Part shown: positions 30,318 through 40,994 of the stretch, piece by piece | Layout: each line of letters begins with the position of its first letter | Numbering within the stretch: position 1 is the stretch's first letter | DNA from: Cytophagaceae bacterium | GTDB taxonomy: Bacteria; Bacteroidota; Bacteroidia; Cytophagales; Flexibacteraceae | DNA length: 64,000 nucleotides | NCBI GenBank assembly: GCA_027490155.1 | Contig: JAIXYP010000009.1 | Location: 124,001 to 188,000 of the forward strand | Reading direction: 5' to 3' | Made by a program: the position numbers and the translations under genes | The notes under the pieces: model-generated | Databases searched by the model: none | Told to the model about the DNA's origin: nothing | Seen by the model: the letters and a program-made list of their open reading frames with translations, nothing else

Positions 30318-31604
30318 TTAAGTTTTCTGCTTTTTCTTCTTGGCCGCGGGGAACAAGATGTTATTCAGGATAAGCCGATAACCTGGCGAATTGGGGTGCA
30401 AATTTAAGTCTGTTGGCTCTTCTCCGACACGGTGTTCATAATCTTCTGGGTCATGACCACCATAAAACGTCCAGGTGCCTTTGCCAAAATTGCCATGGAT
30501 GTACTTGGACTCGTTGATGGCCTTGTTTTCGCCCATGACTACAACATCTGACTTAATCATCTTGGACTTGAAGGCGGTGGTCTGCCCCATGAAGGCCTTG
30601 ATCGACGTCTCGTGGTTTTGGGTCAGCATGGTGGGGATGGGATCCCATTTGGCAGAGAACTGAAACAGCTGGAAATAGTCCGTGGCCTCGCGCATCCCGG
30701 GGCGCTCATAGACTTGGTTGTCTATATCACTATATTCGTACTGCATAGGGTCATCGACAAGCCTGAAGTTCCGGAAGGCAAAGGTGTTGTTGAAGTTGAG
30801 TTTTGATGATGCCCTTGGGTCAGCACCATCACCGTCATAAATGCTGGCACAAATGTCAAGACCATCAGCAGCAAGGGCGATGTCATAGGTATCAGTCGCT
30901 GAGCACATGGCAAACAGAAACCCCCCGCCTGAAACAAATTCCCTGATCTTCTTGACGACAGCTAGTTTCATTTGGCTCACCTTCTGGAAACCGAACTTCT
31001 GGGCTACAGCTTCATAAGTCCGGACCTGCTGCTGATACCAAGGGAAGTTGTGATAGGCAGCGTAGAACTTACCATACTGCCCTGTAAAATCTTCATGATG
31101 AAGGTGGAGCCAATCATACTTTGGAAGCTTGTCCGAAAGCAGCTCTTCGTCAAAGACCACGTCATAAGGAATCTCGGCATAAGTCATTACCAAAGTGACT
31201 GCATCATCCCATGGCCGCTTTTCTTTAGGACTATAGACCGCAATTTTGGGCGGCTTCTCGAGCTTCATGACATCCTGATTGACCTCTGGGCCTGCCATTT
31301 CGTTACGGATGGACTGAGCTTGCGCCTCGGACAACACAGTGTAACTGACCCCTCGGATGACGCACTCGTTCTCGATAGCGACGTTTTGGGCCATCATAAA
31401 ACAGCCTCCTCTGTAGTTTAGCAACCACTCTACCTCTACACTTTTGGTAAGTGCCCAATAAGCCAGACCGTATGCCTTGAGATGATTTTTTTGCTCCTGA
31501 TCCATCGGGAGCAAAATCTGTGTAGACTTTCCGACGTAGCCGACTAGGAGTAAGGCGGTCAGGATAAGGACAAAAAGCTTAGGTTTCTTGAGGTGCATCA
31601 CCAT
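30318..31604 (-). CDS. Bacteroidota exported protein often named asparagine synthetase B (function unproven)
   Basis: A 428-residue protein with a hydrophobic N-terminal signal or anchor (LFVLILTALLLVGYVG). The opening ILLPMDQEQKNHLKAYGLAY and WLLNYRGGCFMM are conserved in a Bacteroidota family frequently labelled asparagine synthetase B. It has neither the Cys2 glutaminase start nor the PPi-loop synthetase domain of AsnB, so the label is almost certainly wrong. Features such as GGGFLFAMCSATDTYDIAL and the final FYGGHDPEDYEH, LHPNSPGYRLILNNILFP suggest a glutamine-amidotransferase-like (ThuA-like) alpha/beta fold. It ends in a Lys-rich tail. Probably periplasmic; the reaction is unknown. It stands between the nuclease gene and the receiver gene, all on the minus strand. 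Confidence 0.75.
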   Translation of the reverse strand: MVMHLKKPKLFVLILTALLLVGYVGKSTQILLPMDQEQKNHLKAYGLAYWALTKSVEVEWLLNYRGGCFMMAQNVAIENECVIRGVSYTVLSEAQAQSIRNEMAGPEVNQDVMKLEKPPKIAVYSPKEKRPWDDAVTLVMTYAEIPYDVVFDEELLSDKLPKYDWLHLHHEDFTGQYGKFYAAYHNFPWYQQQVRTYEAVAQKFGFQKVSQMKLAVVKKIREFVSGGGFLFAMCSATDTYDIALAADGLDICASIYDGDGADPRASSKLNFNNTFAFRNFRLVDDPMQYEYSDIDNQVYERPGMREATDYFQLFQFSAKWDPIPTMLTQNHETSIKAFMGQTTAFKSKMIKSDVVVMGENKAINESKYIHGNFGKGTWTFYGGHDPEDYEHRVGEEPTDLNLHPNSPGYRLILNNILFPAAKKKKQKT

Positions 31605-31850: not shown

Positions 31851-32291
31851 TTACGCAGCCGTACCCCATTTACCATTAGGCACAGGCTGTTGTAGGATAT
31901 CAGAAACACGAGAAGCATCGAGTGGTTTGTTCAGGAAACATTCGACAGCAGGATGTTGCTCGATGGCCTCAATGTCGCGATCGTCAATCGTGGAGCTTAC
32001 GATAAACATACGACAACGACTCTGGACCTCATGGGGTAACTCTAGCACATGCTCTGCAATGTCAAGACCGGACATTTCGGGCATCATCAGGTCCACCAAC
32101 ATCAAGATACGCTTTGGTAACTCATCAGCTGGTTTCTGCAAAAAATCTAACAACTCTTGGCCCTCAGAAAATATCTGTCGAGGCATCAACAAGTTATTGT
32201 AACCCAGCATCTTGTCCGCAATCAGATTATGTAGAGGCACGTCATCTAACAAAATGAGGCAATCAGCCTCTAACTTGGCTTTCGCGTCCAT
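31851..32291 (-). CDS. Single-domain response regulator (receiver)
   Basis: A 146-residue CheY-like receiver and nothing else. The acidic pair is in LILLDDVPLH, the phospho-acceptor Asp in LMLVDLMMPEMSG, the Thr/Ser switch in FIVSSTIDD, and the conserved Lys in CFLNKPLD. The start overlaps the 3' end of the upstream receiver-kinase gene by 29 bases, so translation of the two is probably coupled and the kinase is its likely partner. It has no output domain, so it works by protein contact or as a phosphate relay. It is the last gene of a five-gene minus-strand run that begins with the E1-like gene. Confidence 0.87.
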   Translation of the reverse strand: MDAKAKLEADCLILLDDVPLHNLIADKMLGYNNLLMPRQIFSEGQELLDFLQKPADELPKRILMLVDLMMPEMSGLDIAEHVLELPHEVQSRCRMFIVSSTIDDRDIEAIEQHPAVECFLNKPLDASRVSDILQQPVPNGKWGTAA

Positions 32292-33354
32292 TGGGGATGG
32301 TGATAGTGAAACGTGTGAATTGACCTAGTACGGAGGCCACGTTTATGGTACCGTCCATTTTATTGAGGGTTTCTTTGACCAAGTAGAGGCCAAGACCTGA
32401 CCCTGCATTATCGGCCGCAATACGGTAGAAAATATTGAAGATGGACCCTAGGTGTTTGTCCGCAATGCCTCGCCCATTGTCCTCAATAACGAAAGTCACG
32501 AGGTTGCCTTCGGCTCTGACTTTAATGTCCAGTTGTTTGTAGGGCTGATTGGTTGCGTAGTACTTCGCCGCATTGTTGACCAAGTTGCCAAGCACAAGGT
32601 TAAGTCTAAATTCGTCCGAATATAGGTTAAGCGTAGGGTCGATATCCATCTTGATGTTAACCTCTGGCCGCATCGTTTGCGGGATTTGGGTCTCGATGAC
32701 CAAGGCAAACAAAGCCTTAAGGTCAATCAGCCGCACGGTATTCTCAGTCCTAAGGTTTTTATAGTGATCGATTACACTTCGGATGAAGGTATCCAGCTTA
32801 TGGACACTTTGCTCCATATAGTCTAGGTACCGAGGCGCAGACTCTGGCTCAAGCCTAGTTATCTGGATGAGGCCCAAAACAGACATCAAAGGAGCCCTAA
32901 TGTCGTGTGAAATGCTATAAACAAATCGCTCGAGCTCATCTACGAGTTTGAGCAGCTCGGTATTCTGGTTCTGGATTAGATTTTGGTTGTAGCTATGTTG
33001 GCTTGCTCTGAGCAAAAGGGCAGATAATTGGTGGTTGTTCCATGGCTTCTGTAGGTAGTAGAAAATACTACCTTTGTTAATGCCATCAATCAAGGGGCGG
33101 TTTTCGTCATAGCCTGTCACTAAAATCCGGACAGTATTGGGGTGCGTTGCCTGCACTAGCTCTAGTAGCTCAACCCCTGTCATATTGGGCAGGCGTTGGT
33201 CAGCGAGCAGGACAGAAGGTTTATGCTGTTGCACCAGGCTCAGGGCAAGCTCAGCCGAGTCGGCCAATATAACGTCGTAGTCATGCCTGAACATCGCCTT
33301 GAACGCGTTAAGGTTGGGCCACTCGTCATCGACATAGACTATCTTGGGTTTCAT
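32263..33354 (-). CDS. Receiver-histidine kinase hybrid (REC-HisKA-HATPase)
   Basis: A 363-residue cytosolic protein. Residues 1-120 are a receiver (IVYVDDEWPNLNAFKAMF, phospho-acceptor in LLADQRLPNMTGVELL, ILVTGYDENRP, YYLQKPW). A coiled stretch leads to the H-box FVYSISHDIRAPLMSVLG (His about 150), then a HATPase domain with LVNNAAKYYATN (N-box), VIEDNGRGIADK and GSGLGLYLVKETLNKMDG. A kinase with a receiver at its front and no membrane part is driven by phosphorylation from another kinase, plausibly the 7TMR-DISM kinase just upstream. Its receiver is similar to the divergent receiver at 37971 (both LxDQRxPxMTGVE and KPW). Confidence 0.9.
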   Translation of the reverse strand: MKPKIVYVDDEWPNLNAFKAMFRHDYDVILADSAELALSLVQQHKPSVLLADQRLPNMTGVELLELVQATHPNTVRILVTGYDENRPLIDGINKGSIFYYLQKPWNNHQLSALLLRASQHSYNQNLIQNQNTELLKLVDELERFVYSISHDIRAPLMSVLGLIQITRLEPESAPRYLDYMEQSVHKLDTFIRSVIDHYKNLRTENTVRLIDLKALFALVIETQIPQTMRPEVNIKMDIDPTLNLYSDEFRLNLVLGNLVNNAAKYYATNQPYKQLDIKVRAEGNLVTFVIEDNGRGIADKHLGSIFNIFYRIAADNAGSGLGLYLVKETLNKMDGTINVASVLGQFTRFTITIPNGRESQVRG

Positions 33355-33496
33355 GTATTGCGATATGCGTTAGTAGTCGCAGATTTAGCTTCTTAGTCGA
33401 AATAATCAGCCTAAAAATGACCAATTCTGCGGGATAATGTCGACCAATGTAGTCAAATCATAAACGAATGCCTCAATATGACACTTTTCCTTCGGC

Positions 33497-35767
33497 CTAT
33501 AGCTGCTCTTTAGGTAAAAAAATCCTAAAAGTTGAGCCCGACCCTACAACAGAGTCAACCTCAATCCGGCCGTTGTGTGCTTTGATAATCCCATGGACAA
33601 TGGAAAGGCCCAGTCCGGTCCCCTTACCAACCTCTTTGGTAGAGAAAAAAGGCTCAAATATGTGTTGTTTGACTTCGTCCTTCATGCCAGGTCCATTGTC
33701 GGTCATCTGGATCATGACTTCATGATCCAGATCTTGGGTTTGGATAATGATCTTGGGGGGCTGACCATTGGTGCCTAGTTCGGTGGCCTGGATGGCGTTG
33801 GTCAGGACGTTCATGAAAACCTGGTTAATTTTACCGGGTTGACAGTCAATGTCTGGCAGGACGGCAAATTCTCGCACCATCTCGATTTTAGTTTTGGTGA
33901 TGCTGTTAAGCAAAATCAGGGTGCTATCAAGGCAGCTATTGATTGAGGCCTTCTTCATACTTCGCTCGTCTAGGCGGCTGAAGTTCCGTAGCCCAATCAC
34001 GATTTCAGATGTTCGTTTGGCGCCTTCGTCTATTCCATTTAACAGCTGCTGGACTTCCTCAAGCAAATAATCCAGCTCAAGGTCCTTTATCAACTTTTTA
34101 GCTACAACAGCTTTTTCGTTATCCCACGAAGGGGTTGTGGCGGTCTCTAGCACCGTCAAGACCTCTTTGATATCCTCAAAATCACGCCTTAGGGGCTGTA
34201 TGTTGCTGATAACAAAATTGATGGGGTTATTGATCTCGTGTGCGATGCCTGCAGTGAGCTGACCTAGGGTAGCCATTTTTTCTGCATCTACAAGTTGGGT
34301 TTGGGCCTCCTTCAGGTCGGTGAGGGCCACAGATAGCTGCGTATTGGACTGTTGCAGACTTAGGGTTCGGGCCTCTACTTTTTGCTCGAGTATAACGTTC
34401 TGTTCCTTAACAAGATTATTCTGGGCGATTACCAGTTTTTCGTTCTCAACCAAGGCGGAGATGGTTTCGGCCTGGCTTTGTTCCTTCTCCAGCTTGAGAA
34501 TGTTAATCCGGTCAGCAAGCGCAATAGATAGTAGTATTGTCTCGACACCTGAGCCTATCAAGAGGCTATAGTTTGTCCAGCTATTGTGAGGTACAAAATC
34601 AAAGTCCTTGAGGACAAAGACAATGACCGAAATCAAAAACATTGTCCAAGAAACGAGGATAAACTTAGCGGGCCTATATCCTTGAACACTAATCGTGATT
34701 GCTGCTGCCAAGATCGTCAAGGCACCGAGCAAGGCCCCAAGGTCTATCAGGTTATAGGCCAGAACCTTTTTATCCAACATAATGACCAGCAGGACAAATA
34801 AATAGAGGCCAAAAATGCCTAGCATAACCATGTCCAGCTTCGGGGCTCGTTGCCGCATCTGGAGGATCGGTCTGATGAACAAGATCGTGGAAATCCCTGA
34901 ACTAGCGCCTGCAATTAGGACAGCATATACTTGGAACTGTGGTAAACCAGGCCACAAAAATCGGTAGCCATATCCCTGTAAACAGATTTGTGTGAAGGCC
35001 ACACAAATGACATACAGGACATATAACAGGTAAAGTGGGTCACGCAGACTAAACCAAATAAATAGGTTATAGAAGATCATGACCAGCATTAGGCCGTAAT
35101 ACAGTCCGCTCAGGAAATCAAAAAAAGTAAGGTCCTGCAAGATTTCGGCCTCTGTGCCTAACTTAACTGGTAAGTGTAATGCCTCCTCGGCCCAGACCTT
35201 AAGGTAGATGGTTGAGGTCTGGCCAACAGGTATCGGGACCTTGAACAAGAGATTTTGATGCTGATAAGCCCTATCAAAAAAATTGTTTGTCGGCGAAATA
35301 GACTGCGTTTGCTGCAGTTTGCCTCCAAACATTACATACACCTCTGCACCATCCAGCACGGGCTGCTCTAGGTTGATAAGCAACTCAGGATAGCGAGTGG
35401 CGTTGGTAAGGTCGAGTTTGATCCAGTGTACCACCTCGCCGATTCCTAGGTTAAGTACATCTTCATTACTAGGCGCAAAGGTAGCTTTTGCAATAACTTG
35501 GCCTAGTGACAATCGCTTGGTGGAGTCGGTATAGACGGACAAAAAATGCCCTATTGGCCTCAAAGGTTGGCCCGCCATCACGACAATGATGGGCGACTGT
35601 AGCCCAGATTGACCGCTTTTAGCCTCTTGTGCCGGTGCCACAAAGCCAAACATGGCCATCACTACAGTTACTAGCAGCATGCGCACAAGTTGTCCTGACG
35701 GCCTAGGACTAACGTACAATTGGCCTTGGGGCCTCCTGATCAAATCCAATAATCTGGTTGGGGGCAT
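33497..35767 (-). CDS. 7TMR-DISM sensor histidine kinase
   Basis: A 756-residue membrane sensor. After a signal peptide (about 28-47, ending APAQE) comes an extracytoplasmic beta-sandwich domain of about 130 residues (7TMR-DISMED2 type: GEVVHWIKLDLTNATRYPEL, STIYLKVWAEEALHLPVKL), then seven membrane helices (about 215-430), a coiled coil (KLVIAQNNLVKEQNVILEQK), and a HisKA H-box LTAGIAHEINNPINFV (His about 510) and HATPase motifs MTDNGPGMKDEV and KGTGLGLSIVHGI. 7TMR-DISM proteins bind carbohydrate-like or small ligands outside the cell; this one's ligand is unknown. It lies 36 bases after the GNAT-like gene, almost certainly in the same operon. Confidence 0.9.
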   Translation of the reverse strand: MPPTRLLDLIRRPQGQLYVSPRPSGQLVRMLLVTVVMAMFGFVAPAQEAKSGQSGLQSPIIVVMAGQPLRPIGHFLSVYTDSTKRLSLGQVIAKATFAPSNEDVLNLGIGEVVHWIKLDLTNATRYPELLINLEQPVLDGAEVYVMFGGKLQQTQSISPTNNFFDRAYQHQNLLFKVPIPVGQTSTIYLKVWAEEALHLPVKLGTEAEILQDLTFFDFLSGLYYGLMLVMIFYNLFIWFSLRDPLYLLYVLYVICVAFTQICLQGYGYRFLWPGLPQFQVYAVLIAGASSGISTILFIRPILQMRQRAPKLDMVMLGIFGLYLFVLLVIMLDKKVLAYNLIDLGALLGALTILAAAITISVQGYRPAKFILVSWTMFLISVIVFVLKDFDFVPHNSWTNYSLLIGSGVETILLSIALADRINILKLEKEQSQAETISALVENEKLVIAQNNLVKEQNVILEQKVEARTLSLQQSNTQLSVALTDLKEAQTQLVDAEKMATLGQLTAGIAHEINNPINFVISNIQPLRRDFEDIKEVLTVLETATTPSWDNEKAVVAKKLIKDLELDYLLEEVQQLLNGIDEGAKRTSEIVIGLRNFSRLDERSMKKASINSCLDSTLILLNSITKTKIEMVREFAVLPDIDCQPGKINQVFMNVLTNAIQATELGTNGQPPKIIIQTQDLDHEVMIQMTDNGPGMKDEVKQHIFEPFFSTKEVGKGTGLGLSIVHGIIKAHNGRIEVDSVVGSGSTFRIFLPKEQL

Positions 35768-35803
35768 GGTTGATTTGATGAGCGGAACAAAACTTGAGTG
35801 ATA

Positions 35804-36526
35804 CTACCAACTGGTCGCTTGATTGATATTTATGTTAAGGTCATAGCTTATCTTAACTTGTCCCATACGGGTCATGTCGATGGATTCTTGAATAGGCCTT
35901 ATGCGCAGATCCTGAATCAAGGCACGCTCCTCTGGGTGTGCAGCTGGTAGGTTCACGATGTCCTCGATGATAATGGCCGTAGCAATAAAATCTTCCTTAG
36001 GGTAATAGAACGTGCCCCTCTGGCCAAACTGCTCAGCAACAACGAAACCAGCACGTTTACCCATGTCTAGGGTCCAGCTAGCCGCCAAACCGACTAAAGT
36101 GCTAACCCCAATCTGTGTCAGTAAGGAGATGCCAATGCGGTTAACATAGGTACTACCAATGCCCATGCCGCCGACCTCTCGGCTGTTCCACATGCCGCAC
36201 ATCTCTGCACACGACAATGGTGGCATCGATGCAATAAAGGGATGGATCGAAGGATCCATCATCCCAATGGCTCCTTCGATCGGAAGCGGAAACGCTTGTG
36301 TGGAAATCTGGACCCTTGTCCCTCCCAAGACCCTTCCAGTGGCAGGATCCTGGGCAACGATAACGTAACAATGTGGGTCTTTTGTCCAGACCTCATTAGC
36401 GGAGGTTAGCTTCCTAACCCCTACGGCCTCGAGCACGCGCCTATGCCCCTGCAAGTATTTTTGGCAGAGGTCAGGATCGTCAGTGGCCTTGTAGGCATGA
36501 AAATGTATGCTCGGGATCGGGTCCAA
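35804..36526 (-). CDS. GNAT-fold acyltransferase resembling autoinducer/N-acyl amino acid synthases
   Basis: A 240-residue cytosolic protein. I see a GNAT/LuxI-like order: CYVIVAQDPATGRVLGGTRV (strand pair before the cofactor site), a middle segment PLPIEGAIGMMDPSIHPF, then SCAEMCGMWNSREVGGMGIG where LuxI-type enzymes have an E-[IL]-[SC]-R-like acidic strand, and a helical part TLVGLAASWTLDMGKRAGFV. No ATG is available; TTG 36526 is the best start and an in-frame stop lies seven codons before it. LuxI and FeeM-type enzymes attach acyl chains to amino acids or SAM; whether this one does so is inference. It lies between the E1-like and kinase genes. Confidence 0.6.
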   Translation of the reverse strand: MDPIPSIHFHAYKATDDPDLCQKYLQGHRRVLEAVGVRKLTSANEVWTKDPHCYVIVAQDPATGRVLGGTRVQISTQAFPLPIEGAIGMMDPSIHPFIASMPPLSCAEMCGMWNSREVGGMGIGSTYVNRIGISLLTQIGVSTLVGLAASWTLDMGKRAGFVVAEQFGQRGTFYYPKEDFIATAIIIEDIVNLPAAHPEERALIQDLRIRPIQESIDMTRMGQVKISYDLNININQATSW

Positions 36527-36604
36527 AAGGCTTACAATTCTGGTTTAGTCAAAGATAAGACTTATTCGGAATGGTGTAGTGCTGATTTTTTATGGTTCCA
36601 GACC

Positions 36605-37711
36605 TCAAACTTGCAATGCAAACTGATCCTGAATGAGATAAGGCATTGGCTCTGACTGCTTAAGTATGGTATCAATATCAAAATAGTACCGCCCAGCCCT
36701 AATACCGTCGCCAAGTAGGATTTTCCGGCTTACTTCGGCCACAACCCCGCCTCCAATTACGACAGAACTCGCTAGCTGTGGCCATGTTGTGAGGGACTTG
36801 CCAATCTCTGCAAATGAGTCTCTTAGCCGCGAACTAATCAAATCTCCGTTAATCATCTGCCAAACCATTGCCATCCGAGCAGCCGGAGCGAGGGATTGTA
36901 AAGCTGCCGGATCCTCAGGCATAAGGCCATGTAACAACTTAGTGTCGGGCGCAAGGTCAAAACGCTCAATATCAAGCATCCCACGGTCGTTGGTTTCCAT
37001 GAGGACAGGAATGCGCTGGAGACGCGCCTGTAACCTAACTAACTGTTTGACAATGAGGTCATCACACTCCTCGACGACAAGGTCCAATGCGGTTTCACCG
37101 CCAAAAAATGACTCGATATTCTCAGCGGTTAGACCTTCCGAAAATACCTCCACCTGTAAATACGGATCAATTTCGGCAATTTCTTGCGCCGTTATAACTG
37201 CTTTGTTCAATCCAGACATGTGCAACCCAGCCTTGATCCTGTTGAGGTTACTAAGCTCAAGTGTATCAAAATCAGCCAGTTTGAGGTATCCAGCTCCACG
37301 TTCTTGCGCAATGGTGGTAGCGATGGCAGAACCGACTGAAAGACCCACAATGCCAATAGTTTTGGTACGCAAAATAGCCTGTTCTTCCTTCGTTATCTTG
37401 AGCTGATTACGGCTTGTCCTAACCTCTATGAAGTCATTTTCAGCTAAAATATGTAGCAATCGGCCCGACCAAGGGTAGTAAACCCAAGCGCCTGCCAATA
37501 TTAAGTCCTGCCCATCGTGATGATTGTCAAAGGCTGTAGCACGCTCAAACAAGCTAAGACGAGTCGTCGGGTTACGCAACTGATACAACTCCATCCACTG
37601 CTGCTGATAGAGGTCAAACACCAGTTGCGGGTTTATTGAGACTCGATAGTTAATTATTTGGCTCAGCTGCTGCTGTACACCCGGATTGAGAATCAAATGA
37701 CTGGTCTGCAT
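36605..37711 (-). CDS. ThiF/MoeB-type E1-like adenylating enzyme (Rv1355c-like family)
   Basis: A 368-residue protein; I chose ATG 37711 over the TTG at 37792. The N-terminal 130 residues are of unknown fold. The E1 domain starts at TIGIVGLSVGSAIATTIAQE (nucleotide loop), followed by LADFDTLELSNLNRI, which carries the Asp and Asn/Arg residues that bind ATP, GLNKAVITAQEIAEIDPYL, and VVEECDDLIVKQLVRL (position of the magnesium Asp). E1-like enzymes adenylate a C-terminal carboxylate; no ubiquitin-like or ThiS-like partner is seen nearby. Larger relatives of this type also carry a nitroreductase domain, which is missing here. It is the first gene of the minus-strand operon with a GNAT and two kinases. 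Confidence 0.78.
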   Translation of the reverse strand: MQTSHLILNPGVQQQLSQIINYRVSINPQLVFDLYQQQWMELYQLRNPTTRLSLFERATAFDNHHDGQDLILAGAWVYYPWSGRLLHILAENDFIEVRTSRNQLKITKEEQAILRTKTIGIVGLSVGSAIATTIAQERGAGYLKLADFDTLELSNLNRIKAGLHMSGLNKAVITAQEIAEIDPYLQVEVFSEGLTAENIESFFGGETALDLVVEECDDLIVKQLVRLQARLQRIPVLMETNDRGMLDIERFDLAPDTKLLHGLMPEDPAALQSLAPAARMAMVWQMINGDLISSRLRDSFAEIGKSLTTWPQLASSVVIGGGVVAEVSRKILLGDGIRAGRYYFDIDTILKQSEPMPYLIQDQFALQV

Positions 37712-37970
37712 CTTGGTTTCGTAGCATTGATAACCTTGGCATGAAAGGTCATCAGGATTGGTACCCAATAATAGGATCAAAACCGACCACAAGTTGGGCT
37801 TTGCTATGGCTGATTGCGAAGTTTACTTACATCTTTACTATTGAGCCAAAGGTCAGGAGTCTCAGAATATTTGCTTAGCTTTAAGGCCATATTGTTAGCT
37901 GATGCCAAGCCATAGTGGCTACCTTTAAGATCTTGCTCTACTAATTTATTGAACCCTTTTAATATCTGCC

Positions 37971-38468
37971 ATGTCTAGTGTTGACCACTCACTGAAAGTA
38001 CCCCTTGAGAAAGAAAAGGTCAGGATTTTGTATGTCGATGACGAAGAAAACAACCTAACCGCCTTCAAGGCGACCTTCAGGCGCGACTTTACGGTCTTTA
38101 CTGCCCTATCTGGGGCAGAGGGTCGTGTTGTTTTAGAAAAGGAGGATATCAATATCATTGTGACAGATCAGCGGATGCCACAGATGACTGGCGTGGAATT
38201 TCTTGCAAGCATCCTGCCTGATCACCCAAAACCTATTCGGATACTGCTTACTGGCTTTGCGGACATCGAGGCGGTTATCAATGCTATCAATTTGGGGCAG
38301 GTCTATCGGTATATTACTAAACCTTGGGATGCGAAGGAGCTGATGATCTCGATCATGAACGCCTATGAGATCTGGCACCTAAGACAAGAAAATGAGCAGC
38401 TAACCCAAGATCTGCTTGAGGCAAATGAGAAGATGGAATTCATGCTTCGGCAATCATTGCTTAGCTAA
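37971..38468 (+). CDS. Response regulator receiver with a coiled-coil tail
   Basis: A 165-residue protein. The receiver has the acidic pair VRILYVDDEENNLTAF, phospho-acceptor Asp in IIVTDQRMPQMTG (about residue 66), ILLTGFADIEAV and the Lys in YRYITKPWD. After it, residues 130-165 form a helical, probably coiled-coil extension (RQENEQLTQDLLEANEKMEF) without an output domain. It is divergent from the E1-like gene, with about 260 bases between starts, and its receiver is close to the receiver of the hybrid kinase, so I count it as part of the same signalling locus. The output is unknown. Confidence 0.87.
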   Translation: MSSVDHSLKVPLEKEKVRILYVDDEENNLTAFKATFRRDFTVFTALSGAEGRVVLEKEDINIIVTDQRMPQMTGVEFLASILPDHPKPIRILLTGFADIEAVINAINLGQVYRYITKPWDAKELMISIMNAYEIWHLRQENEQLTQDLLEANEKMEFMLRQSLLS

Positions 38469-38732: not shown

Positions 38733-40994
38733 ATGTATTGCTTTAGAAAAACGATATCGGCGGTGGTCTTGATGACCTTGGCCTTCGGAACCACAATGGC
38801 TCAGTTCCCGACAAACAACCCCTACAAAACAACCTACGCCATCACCAACAACCACTGGACTGATAGCCTGAAATGGAGCACAGTGATTTCAGTTGCAGAT
38901 TTTGGTGCAGTGGCCAATGATCAACAAGATGACTACCCAGCCATTGCAGCAGGTGTTGATACACTGCATGCTCGAGGCGGAGGTGTTTTGTTTTTCCCAG
39001 CAGGAAAGTACTACAGCAGCCAAACCCTCAAGGTTAAATCTGGCGTCATCCTGCGTGGTGATGTGATCCCAGCAGGGCAAAACGACCCAATGCAGGCCAG
39101 CTTTGTGCCACCAAGTATGATCGAGTTCCCACAGTATGTGTTTGACACATTGGCAAATGGCGGCTCGGGAACTGATAACAGCACTGCTTTCAAACTTATA
39201 TCTGGCGAAGTTGGTGGTAGCAATATGGGCGTTGTTGATCTTGATATCAACCGTGCGGTAATCAAGTTCCAGCCAGATTGGGTTCAAGTATCAGGATTTT
39301 CGAATCGGCAACCTTCAGGTGCCATTCGGAATGTGGTTGTGATGGGGGTTCGGAGCAATAACGCTGCTTTGGCTGACCCAGGAGTACCTGCAACCGGCCA
39401 AAAACCTTGGCAACGATTCTCATGGCGCTTCAGCACCAATATAGATGTCAACGTGGCTGCAAATTGCATAGTTGCCAAATGTCGCCTCAATGATGGATTG
39501 CCTAAGGATAACTTCATGATGGAGGGTTTTGCCATTCAGCAACGAAACACCACACGTATGCGTTTGCTGACAGTCGCAGAACGGCCTTTGTTTGACTATG
39601 ATGCCCATTATGGCATATCAGTCAACCGTAAAAAAACATACTTAACACCGGCTGGAGCATGGGCAATCGATGGGTATGCACTCTGGGCGTCCCCAGCTGA
39701 GGAACCGACATTGTTCTCTCCAGGCATCGAGGTACTTGATAACTGGATCTATAAGACTAGCCGTGTGGCCATTATCGGTGCCGGCAATGGCCTTGTGATG
39801 AAAGGTAATAAGATGTATGACGATCTTGCCAAACCCAGCAGGTCTGACTATATGGGCCCAACCGGCAGGGTCACCCCTCAAGGTGCAACAACGTTCGAAA
39901 ATCGTGGCATTGACTTTAGCGGTTGGAACATCAGGATTGAGAACAACCATATTGAATGCACTAGAAACCTTGCTGGTGGATACCTAAGTACCGATGGTGA
40001 AGGAATCTTGCTACAAGAGTGCTGCGGCGGCACTCAAGTCAACGATTATGTAATCAAAGGCAATGTAATGGCCCTAGGCAACTACGTCGGTATCTACAAG
40101 ATGCGCACCATCAACAATGTCAACATTTCGGATAACGATATGGGGACTGGGCCTATTTGGGTTTGGGCAAATACTAACGGGACTGACTATTACCTTAATG
40201 GTACCTACATTGCTAACAATCGTAATGTTGGTGGTATTTCTCTCAATGGCGACATAGGTGGTGTAAACTGCTTGGTAACAGGAAACCAAGGTCAAGGCGG
40301 TAGTAGCATGAGCGTAGCTTGCCATGTTGAGGTCGCACCTGACAACCAAGGCTATGCCGCAACAACCTACAATAACAACGGCGGCCAGTCTTGCGCTCCA
40401 ATGACAAGTTTCCCACAAGCTATTATTGTTGGCCAAGGCACCGATAGTAGCTTCTGCGCCTCTGGCTCAGGCGGCACAACAGTTCCTGTCCTTATTAAGG
40501 TCACGATGCGTAATGGCGACCCTGCCAACGCCTCTGGTAGCTTGATGCTTAACAACGTTGTGGTGGCCAATAGCCTAACCTTTGATGTCAATGACAGCAC
40601 TGCGCGTGTTTTGGTCGATTTACCGATTGGCAACGGGACCTATAATTTCGCTGCAACAGTCTTGGCTGGTGGCAACTCGACTTTCACACGTGTTCGGACT
40701 TTTACACAAAATTGTGCGATCACTAGCCTTGCTGGTAAAGCAAACGCTACGTTCAGCATCTACCCTAACCCTGCCAAAGACGTCCTTTACATTCAGAATC
40801 AAGTTGCGATGAAAGGTTTGGTTGAAGCCTCTGCCTATAACCTAATCGGTAGTAGAATGCTGTCCAAAAGCTGGATGCTAGGTGGCCAAACAGACAATGG
40901 AGCAATTGATGTCAGCAGCTTGCCACAAGGTGTTTATATGTTGAAGGTATCAGCCAATGGGATGCAGACGAGCAAACGCTTTGTTAAGCAATAG
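38733..40994 (+). CDS. Secreted pectate-lyase-like right-handed beta-helix protein with T9SS sorting domain
   Basis: A 753-residue exported protein. The signal peptide ends near TTMAQF. From about residue 45 the pectate-lyase superfamily opening is clear: VISVADFGAVANDQQDDYPAIAAGVDTLHARGGGV, here seen as VADFGAVANDQQDDYPAIAA and GGGVLFFPAGKYY. Beta-helix turns with Asn-rich rungs follow (NWIYKTSRVAIIGAGN, NNHIECTRNLAGGYLSTDGE, NVNISDNDMGTG). The last 80 residues form a T9SS sorting domain (FSIYPNPAKDVLYI, LPQGVYMLKVSA). Such proteins are polysaccharide lyases or hydrolases (GH28-like), but catalytic residues could not be assigned by eye, so the substrate is open. Confidence 0.85.
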   Translation: MYCFRKTISAVVLMTLAFGTTMAQFPTNNPYKTTYAITNNHWTDSLKWSTVISVADFGAVANDQQDDYPAIAAGVDTLHARGGGVLFFPAGKYYSSQTLKVKSGVILRGDVIPAGQNDPMQASFVPPSMIEFPQYVFDTLANGGSGTDNSTAFKLISGEVGGSNMGVVDLDINRAVIKFQPDWVQVSGFSNRQPSGAIRNVVVMGVRSNNAALADPGVPATGQKPWQRFSWRFSTNIDVNVAANCIVAKCRLNDGLPKDNFMMEGFAIQQRNTTRMRLLTVAERPLFDYDAHYGISVNRKKTYLTPAGAWAIDGYALWASPAEEPTLFSPGIEVLDNWIYKTSRVAIIGAGNGLVMKGNKMYDDLAKPSRSDYMGPTGRVTPQGATTFENRGIDFSGWNIRIENNHIECTRNLAGGYLSTDGEGILLQECCGGTQVNDYVIKGNVMALGNYVGIYKMRTINNVNISDNDMGTGPIWVWANTNGTDYYLNGTYIANNRNVGGISLNGDIGGVNCLVTGNQGQGGSSMSVACHVEVAPDNQGYAATTYNNNGGQSCAPMTSFPQAIIVGQGTDSSFCASGSGGTTVPVLIKVTMRNGDPANASGSLMLNNVVVANSLTFDVNDSTARVLVDLPIGNGTYNFAATVLAGGNSTFTRVRTFTQNCAITSLAGKANATFSIYPNPAKDVLYIQNQVAMKGLVEASAYNLIGSRMLSKSWMLGGQTDNGAIDVSSLPQGVYMLKVSANGMQTSKRFVKQ

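Follow-up and report, generated by a model that had tools for sequence, protein, structure and literature searches.

A recurrent Bacteroidota gene module that joins a predicted N-acyl amino acid synthase to a 7TMR-DISM sensor kinase and a Phc-like relay

The described systems closest to the locus reported here are of two kinds. Oxazolone clusters, namely OxzAB of Pseudoalteromonas and TyzACB and TrzAS of Mycobacterium and Rhodococcus, place an N-acyltransferase of the FeeM/BjaI fold beside a ThiF/E1 cyclase of the Rv1355c family. The N-acyltransferase, ATP-dependent cyclase, and oxidase of TyzACB and TrzA/TrzS are biochemically proven (PMC12856293, PMC10404671). Rv1355c is itself TrzS, an enzyme that activates N-acyl tryptophan by adenylation, closes the ring, and then desaturates the product (PMC12856293). 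Oxazolones are broken down by acid and by methanol (PMC12856293). The discoverers of the mycobacterial pathways regard the physiological function of these compounds in bacteria as a major open question (PMC12856293). The other kind is the phcBSRQ locus of Ralstonia, where phcB encodes the methyltransferase that makes the signal and phcS, phcR, and phcQ encode a quorum-sensing relay (PMC8578825). Relatives of both kinds meet in six genes at positions 31,851 to 38,468 of a 64,000-nucleotide stretch of DNA from a Cytophagaceae bacterium (contig JAIXYP010000009.1, positions 124,001 to 188,000), which is called the window below. The genes are as follows.

36605..37711, minus strand: E1/ThiF-like adenylating enzyme (E1) of the Rv1355c (TrzS) family, cyclase half only, identified with Pfam and NCBIfam
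35804..36526, minus strand: GNAT-fold N-acyltransferase (GNAT), a predicted N-acyl amino acid synthase on the strength of a structure model, with a TTG start
33497..35767, minus strand: 7TMR-DISM sensor histidine kinase (DISM kinase), with a DISMED2 extracytoplasmic domain, seven transmembrane helices (7TM), HisKA, and HATPase_c (Pfam)
32263..33354, minus strand: receiver plus histidine kinase (REC-kinase) of PhcR-like layout, with Response_reg, HisKA, and HATPase_c and no DNA-binding domain
31851..32291, minus strand: single receiver REC1, with Response_reg below the cut-off and a 29-base overlap with the REC-kinase gene
37971..38468, plus strand: divergent single receiver REC2, with Response_reg (1.1e-18) and a conserved C-terminal tail, EFxLRQxLLS

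Comparison of sequences indicates that these six genes are one conserved unit across Bacteroidota. In a survey of 395 Bacteroidota genomes, drawn evenly but not independent draws, GNAT gave 14 matches, 13 of them real and spanning 11 genera; the fourteenth (in G106) was a chance match to an unrelated open reading frame (ORF). At a threshold of E<=1e-100, the DISM kinase orthologue is confined to exactly the same 13 genomes, which excludes chance assembly, and E1 (E<=1e-40) is found in 10 genomes, all within this set. In all 13 neighbourhoods, at most one gene separates GNAT from the DISM kinase. REC-kinase follows in 12 of them (L027 instead has a REC-PAS-HisKA_3 kinase there), and REC2 occurs in 11, once in degenerate form (L028). 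E1 is likewise present in 11, one of these being a fragment at a contig end, and in two neighbourhoods (L020 and L022) its position is held by an integral-membrane isoprenylcysteine-type methyltransferase (ICMT).

The GTDB contig collection was scanned with an alignment of E1, because the GNAT alignment was too divergent, and the best 80 of 585 relatives were kept. These 80 are all from Bacteroidota, including Dyadobacter, Mucilaginibacter, Chitinophaga, Pedobacter, Sphingobacterium, Algoriphagus, Taibaiella, and others. Enough flanking sequence for a count of gene content was available at 64 loci, from named organisms or metagenome-assembled genomes (MAGs). GNAT, DISM kinase, and REC-kinase occur together in 57 of the 64, REC-kinase adjoins the DISM kinase in 58, REC2 is present in 52, and a REC1 orthologue is present in 46. 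The order of genes varies between E1-GNAT-DISM and GNAT-E1-DISM, and REC2 lies at either end, always on the opposite strand. A recurrent flanking gene, as a possible output, was sought around the loci and none was found; families in the flanks reach at most six genus-level groups. Because the content of the module is constant while its order is shuffled and its flanks do not recur, the comparison argues for a functional linkage, not plain synteny or an inherited chromosome region.

A second search was centred on the ICMT-type GNAT within its family (246 genomes in 103 genera) and detected GNAT in 78 genomes and 40 genera. The DISM kinase is next to GNAT or one gene away in 40 of 40 further neighbourhoods, and the same block has now been seen again in about a hundred of the Bacteroidota genomes examined. 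An earlier note on the window, made from its letters alone, had listed the five minus-strand genes with gaps of 78, 36, and 142 bases and one overlap of 29 bases, all of which are as it stated, and its domain assignments, that of GNAT apart, are backed by Pfam. The note had also made much depend on whether the genes keep company in other genomes, which they do, both in the 13 shared genomes and in the 40 further neighbourhoods. It had placed a divergent receiver upstream of the five; this gene, REC2, is present, and its recurrence marks it as a core member of the module and not a bystander.

The second enzyme of the module is not the same everywhere. In the 40 further neighbourhoods, it is an E1-oxidase fusion in 15, an E1 without the oxidase in eight, and ICMT in four. 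The remaining 13 have a class I methyltransferase (three), an oxidase linked to flavin adenine dinucleotide (FAD; two), or no gene between GNAT and the kinase (eight). Because the second enzyme differs or is missing while GNAT and the kinase stay, the finishing enzyme is swappable, and the constant core consists of acyltransferase, sensor, and relay. This distinguishes the module from the oxazolone clusters, in that its second enzyme can be replaced by methyltransferases or an FAD oxidase. A methyltransferase in this position would probably yield a methyl ester, and relatives that have one (ICMT or class I) resemble phcB in principle.

The E1 protein matches ThiF in Pfam (4.7e-18) and the Rv1355c family model NF005901 with 412 bits at model positions 9-343 of 722, which is the ThiF half. 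Its adenylation residues (G150, G154, D174, D176, N182, N184, R185, K197, and D244, in the numbering of a 395-amino-acid (aa) protein) do not vary in any of 83 sequences, among which are actinobacterial homologues. The fusion of ThiF with a flavin oxidase of the nitroreductase fold, as found in the oxazolone clusters, is present in 44 of the best 80 of the 585 E1 relatives, and oxidase-fused Bacteroidota relatives such as L018 exceed the cut-off of the Rv1355c equivalog over the full protein (734 versus 476 bits). In contrast, the oxidase is absent from the window E1 and its cluster; no homologue was found elsewhere in the same genome with the one query used, which is a weak negative. A natural E1-GNAT fusion (L069:6409-8307, in a Saprospiraceae MAG, with the GNAT model scoring 184 bits at residues 395-617) implies that the two proteins act together; its contig has no kinase. 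The tyz and trz clusters have no 7TMR-DISM kinase, REC-kinase, or receivers, whereas the Bacteroidota pair is tied to these.

Two further arrangements of E1 were observed. In three relatives (L042:9920-12001, L037:9890-11791, and L060:9893-12133), about 270-390 residues at the C-terminus of E1 match no Pfam family, nor do they match the flavin oxidase; they possibly form another finishing domain. In Dyadobacter (L065, L075, and L079), a second copy of E1, without a kinase, lies upstream of E1 and beside a protein of 249-276 aa that weakly matches GNAT families (Acetyltransf_5). This copy perhaps belongs to an orphan pathway for oxazolones that uses another acyltransferase.

The GNAT protein matches no Pfam family at E<=1, and hence not the autoinducer-synthase sequence family. 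A phmmer search against the PDB returned only fragments of HIV protease, which are chance matches. The AlphaFold2 model of the protein (pLDDT 89) has MesI, TofI, BjaI, RpaI, and FeeM as its best Foldseek matches, and VIA-align gives Z 16.7 against FeeM (2g0b; root-mean-square deviation 2.8 over 179 residues) and Z 15.6 against LasI. The predicted fold is that of acyl-homoserine lactone (AHL) synthases and FeeM, in agreement with the LuxI/FeeM-like features that the first reading of the sequence had noticed, and not that of an ordinary ribosomal or sugar acetyltransferase. It shares the fold of LuxI-type AHL synthases, with MesI, TofI, BjaI, and RpaI on top, but not their sequence family. Other GNATs match nearly as well (1xeb, Z 15.9), so the modelled fold alone leaves the substrate undecided. 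An alignment of 14 GNAT sequences has 17 invariant columns. The closest structures to TyzA of M. tuberculosis, which is proven to N-acylate tyrosine and phenylalanine, are FeeM and BjaI, the same neighbours as those of the window GNAT (PMC10404671).

The DISM kinase has the complete 7TMR-DISM histidine kinase set: 7TMR-DISMED2 (6.1e-23), 7TMR-DISM_7TM (9.8e-47), HisKA, and HATPase_c. In a model of its sensor half (pLDDT 89), the extracytoplasmic part resembles the periplasmic domain of RetS of Pseudomonas aeruginosa (3jyb, Z 16.1 over 136 residues), whose 7TMR-DISM layout it shares. Unlike the sensor of the module, RetS is a hybrid kinase that acts on GacS and has no linked small-molecule synthase. 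Carbohydrate-binding folds also match DISMED2, and the 7TM bundle also resembles those of G-protein-coupled receptors, although bundle matches may reflect only a common arrangement. The sensor part is the fastest-evolving part of the module, with mean distances of 0.72 for the extracytoplasmic domain, 0.59 for 7TM, and 0.42 for the kinase, a divergence that fits a diversifying receptor. Distances in the sensor half correlate weakly with those in the kinase half (0.56-0.59), whereas the kinase half and the separate REC-kinase correlate at 0.88, which suggests that the sensor halves of DISM kinases have been swapped.

REC-kinase comprises Response_reg (2.3e-16), HisKA (1.6e-8), and HATPase_c (1.2e-21), and REC1 matches Response_reg at 2.4e-6, its 28.1 bits being just under the Pfam cut-off of 30.2. 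A Pfam scan detected no DNA-binding domain in REC-kinase, REC1, or REC2. The degenerate REC2 (L028:9912-10403) has a degenerate phosphorylation site but has kept the C-terminal tail (EFMLRHSLLS). REC2 may work through this tail.

The phcBSRQ locus (3-OH MAME/PAME) has the same layout of signal-making enzyme, membrane sensor kinase, REC-kinase, and lone receiver, with no DNA-binding domain, the likeness being one of layout (PMC8578825). The window module differs in having N-acylation and E1 in place of a PhcB-type methyltransferase, a sensor composed of DISMED2 and 7TM, and an extra receiver, REC1. In LuxM-LuxN and CqsA-CqsS of Vibrio and in Lqs of Legionella, a synthase gene is likewise the neighbour of a gene for a membrane histidine kinase, which passes its signal to a relay, but the synthase combination is unrelated to that of the module and the sensor domains are other ones. 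The earlier note knew of no characterised system with this set of genes. That holds for the whole, for which no description was found in the searchable open literature (not a proof of absence), but each half has a relative: OxzAB, TyzACB, and TrzAS on the enzyme side, and the PhcS-PhcR-PhcQ layout on the relay side. Thus, the enzymology is known in part, whereas the combination of synthase and sensor, its spread in Bacteroidota, and the exchangeable finishing enzyme appear to be undescribed.

Gene content, co-occurrence, fold, adenylation residues, and the swappable second enzyme are what the analysis shows, and they support the interpretation that we favour and regard as reasonably probable, namely, that the module is a self-contained Bacteroidota signal system in which N-acyl-amino-acid-derived signals are made and sensed by one set of genes. 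Judging by its fold and homologues, GNAT would acylate an amino acid on its amino group, with acyl-CoA or acyl-ACP as the donor. By comparison with its homologues, E1 would then use ATP to adenylate the carboxylate of the N-acyl amino acid, and attack by the amide oxygen would close the ring to a 5-oxazolone, which would be either the product or its precursor. In relatives, the fused flavin oxidase would desaturate this product, or a methyltransferase, an FAD oxidase, or no second enzyme would take the place of E1. Because the oxidase is missing, the product in the window would be a saturated oxazolone or a derivative of one. N-acylation followed by ATP-dependent ring closure is likely to be the order of reactions, because the proven TyzACB and TrzAS pathways run that way (PMC12856293, PMC10404671). 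The make-and-sense circuit of the earlier note is therefore retained as the best reading of the conserved unit, but its chemistry, in which E1 prepared a carboxylate before GNAT acted, must be reversed.

The neutral, lipid-like product would leave the cell and be sensed by the RetS-like DISMED2 domain, a pocket in 7TM, or both. Phosphate would then be relayed among the DISM kinase, REC-kinase, REC1, and REC2, as their domains suggest, and the two single receivers would act on a partner protein or a regulator encoded elsewhere, as in PhcS-PhcR-PhcQ. We give roughly even chances to the broader proposal that this is a widespread class of Bacteroidota cell-cell signalling, in which N-acyl amino acids are finished in exchangeable ways (by ring closure, desaturation, methylation, oxidation, or not at all) and each product is read by a 7TMR-DISM kinase that matches it and by a Phc-like relay.

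A sensor that reads the product should follow the type of second enzyme. On this premise, changes of enzyme type were counted on trees built from equal numbers of columns, with 40 bootstraps. The count is 17-23 for the sensor tree, compared with 24-29 for GNAT, 25-29 for the kinase half, 25-28 for REC-kinase, and about 50 with shuffled labels. The advantage of the sensor is kept at loci where E1 is next to it (3-5 changes versus 5-7, 6-8, and 6-8 for the other three trees) and is gone where GNAT lies between them (8-13 versus 8-12, 8-10, and 8-10). Because the advantage vanishes in the latter loci, gene linkage suffices as an explanation, and the match between sensor and second enzyme is suggestive but confounded by adjacency.

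Several points weigh against a signal that is made and sensed by the module. Joint transfer of neighbouring genes can account for the match just described, the module contains no exporter gene, and, with no flavin oxidase on the window E1, the pathway may end in something other than a stable oxazolone. The oxazolones of mycobacteria and Rhodococcus are mostly cell-associated, although acyl amino acids occur in the medium (PMC12856293). The ligand could also be a glycan, given the resemblance of DISMED2 to carbohydrate-binding modules.

This last resemblance, together with the similarity of DISMED2 to RetS, also fits a regulated natural product, in which the N-acyl amino acid or oxazolone would serve as an antimicrobial, a surfactant, or a stress lipid, and the kinase would switch on its production in response to an external cue, such as a glycan, envelope stress, or a competitor, instead of to the product. 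Metabolite genes commonly lie beside a kinase that controls their expression. Moreover, N-acyl tyrosines of Stieleria are antimicrobial, and antibiotics induce production of proteobacterial oxazolones (PMC12856293). However, the kinase orthologue never occurs without GNAT in the 395 genomes, and it is kept when the second enzyme is swapped or missing, which is easier to understand if it senses the GNAT product. None of the receivers has a DNA-binding domain, and genes for resistance or export are absent from the module. We consider such a natural product possible but doubtful. Improbable, in our view, is a role in envelope or membrane lipid homeostasis, with an N-acyl amino acid membrane lipid formed under phosphate or envelope stress and a 7TM kinase that reads the state of the membrane. 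Bacteroidota do produce glycine and serine lipids through N-acylation (PMC12479983), and oxazolones are cell-associated in mycobacteria (PMC12856293), but the GNAT fold is AHL-synthase/FeeM-like, the module has no gene for a second (O-)acyltransferase, and its patchy distribution (13 of 395 genomes, and 78 of 246 in one family) is unlike that of a housekeeping lipid. The E1 fold is also common to E1-E2 defence proteins, and PADLOC E1-E2 models match weakly over about 100 residues (best 2e-11). Nevertheless, a system for protein modification or against phages, by ubiquitin-like or CBASS-like conjugation, is very improbable: no E2, ubiquitin-like protein, or JAB gene is a neighbour, the neighbours being GNAT and the relay genes; the metabolic Rv1355c family scores 412 bits versus 42 bits for the E1-E2 models; and the constant partner is an acyltransferase.

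If the module does make and sense its own signal, oxazolones would be autoinducers. To our knowledge, no acyl-type quorum sensing native to Bacteroidota is well characterised, and the module would give these bacteria a diversified system of that type. Most 7TMR-DISM receptors are orphans, and these receptors would gain a natural class of ligand. The role of oxazolones also becomes directly testable, since harmless soil bacteria that can be cultured (Dyadobacter, Chitinophaga, Pedobacter, Mucilaginibacter, Sphingobacterium, and others) have related enzymes joined to a dedicated receptor and relay.

Two noncoding stretches of the locus deserve separate description.

36527..36604, minus strand: E1-GNAT intergenic stretch, containing TATCTTTG at 36550-36557
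37712..37970, no strand: divergent intergenic region from E1 to REC2, delimited by the layout and the likely E1 start

The E1-GNAT stretch (36527-36604) shows no difference from its counterpart in the relative G007, while the surrounding coding DNA differs by about 10% (alignment with L016). The TATCTTTG sequence agrees with the Bacteroidota -7 motif TAnnTTTG, and GNAT may have a promoter of its own within this stretch. The divergent region is probably a promoter region shared by E1 and REC2. The mechanical start of the E1 ORF is a TTG at 37792; because this TTG is absent in a near relative, which keeps the ATG at 37711, the true start is probably ATG 37711, giving a protein of 368 aa. Ratios of nonsynonymous to synonymous substitution (dN/dS) against the near relative are 0.08 for GNAT, 0.17 for E1, 0.25 for the compared part of the DISM kinase, and 0.01 for REC2, values (0.01-0.25) that indicate purifying selection on all tested module genes.

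Downstream of the module, window positions 30318-31604 encode a 428-aa protein that matched no Pfam or NCBIfam family. On the other side, a secreted protein sorted by the type IX secretion system, with a rhamnogalacturonidase/pectinase-like N-terminus, adjoins the module at window positions 38733-40994; the arrangement is the same in G007 and does not recur elsewhere. Viral contigs scanned with the GNAT protein gave no match, and no relatives of GNAT or REC-kinase were found on plasmids. The E1 relatives on plasmids are actinobacterial. A Streptomyces plasmid has a ThiF protein without the oxidase beside a GNAT (L132:5836-7634), and a Rhodococcus plasmid has an Rv1355c-family gene near a GGDEF gene (L134:3838-8040). 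Signalling genes close to oxazolone genes may be a wider pattern.

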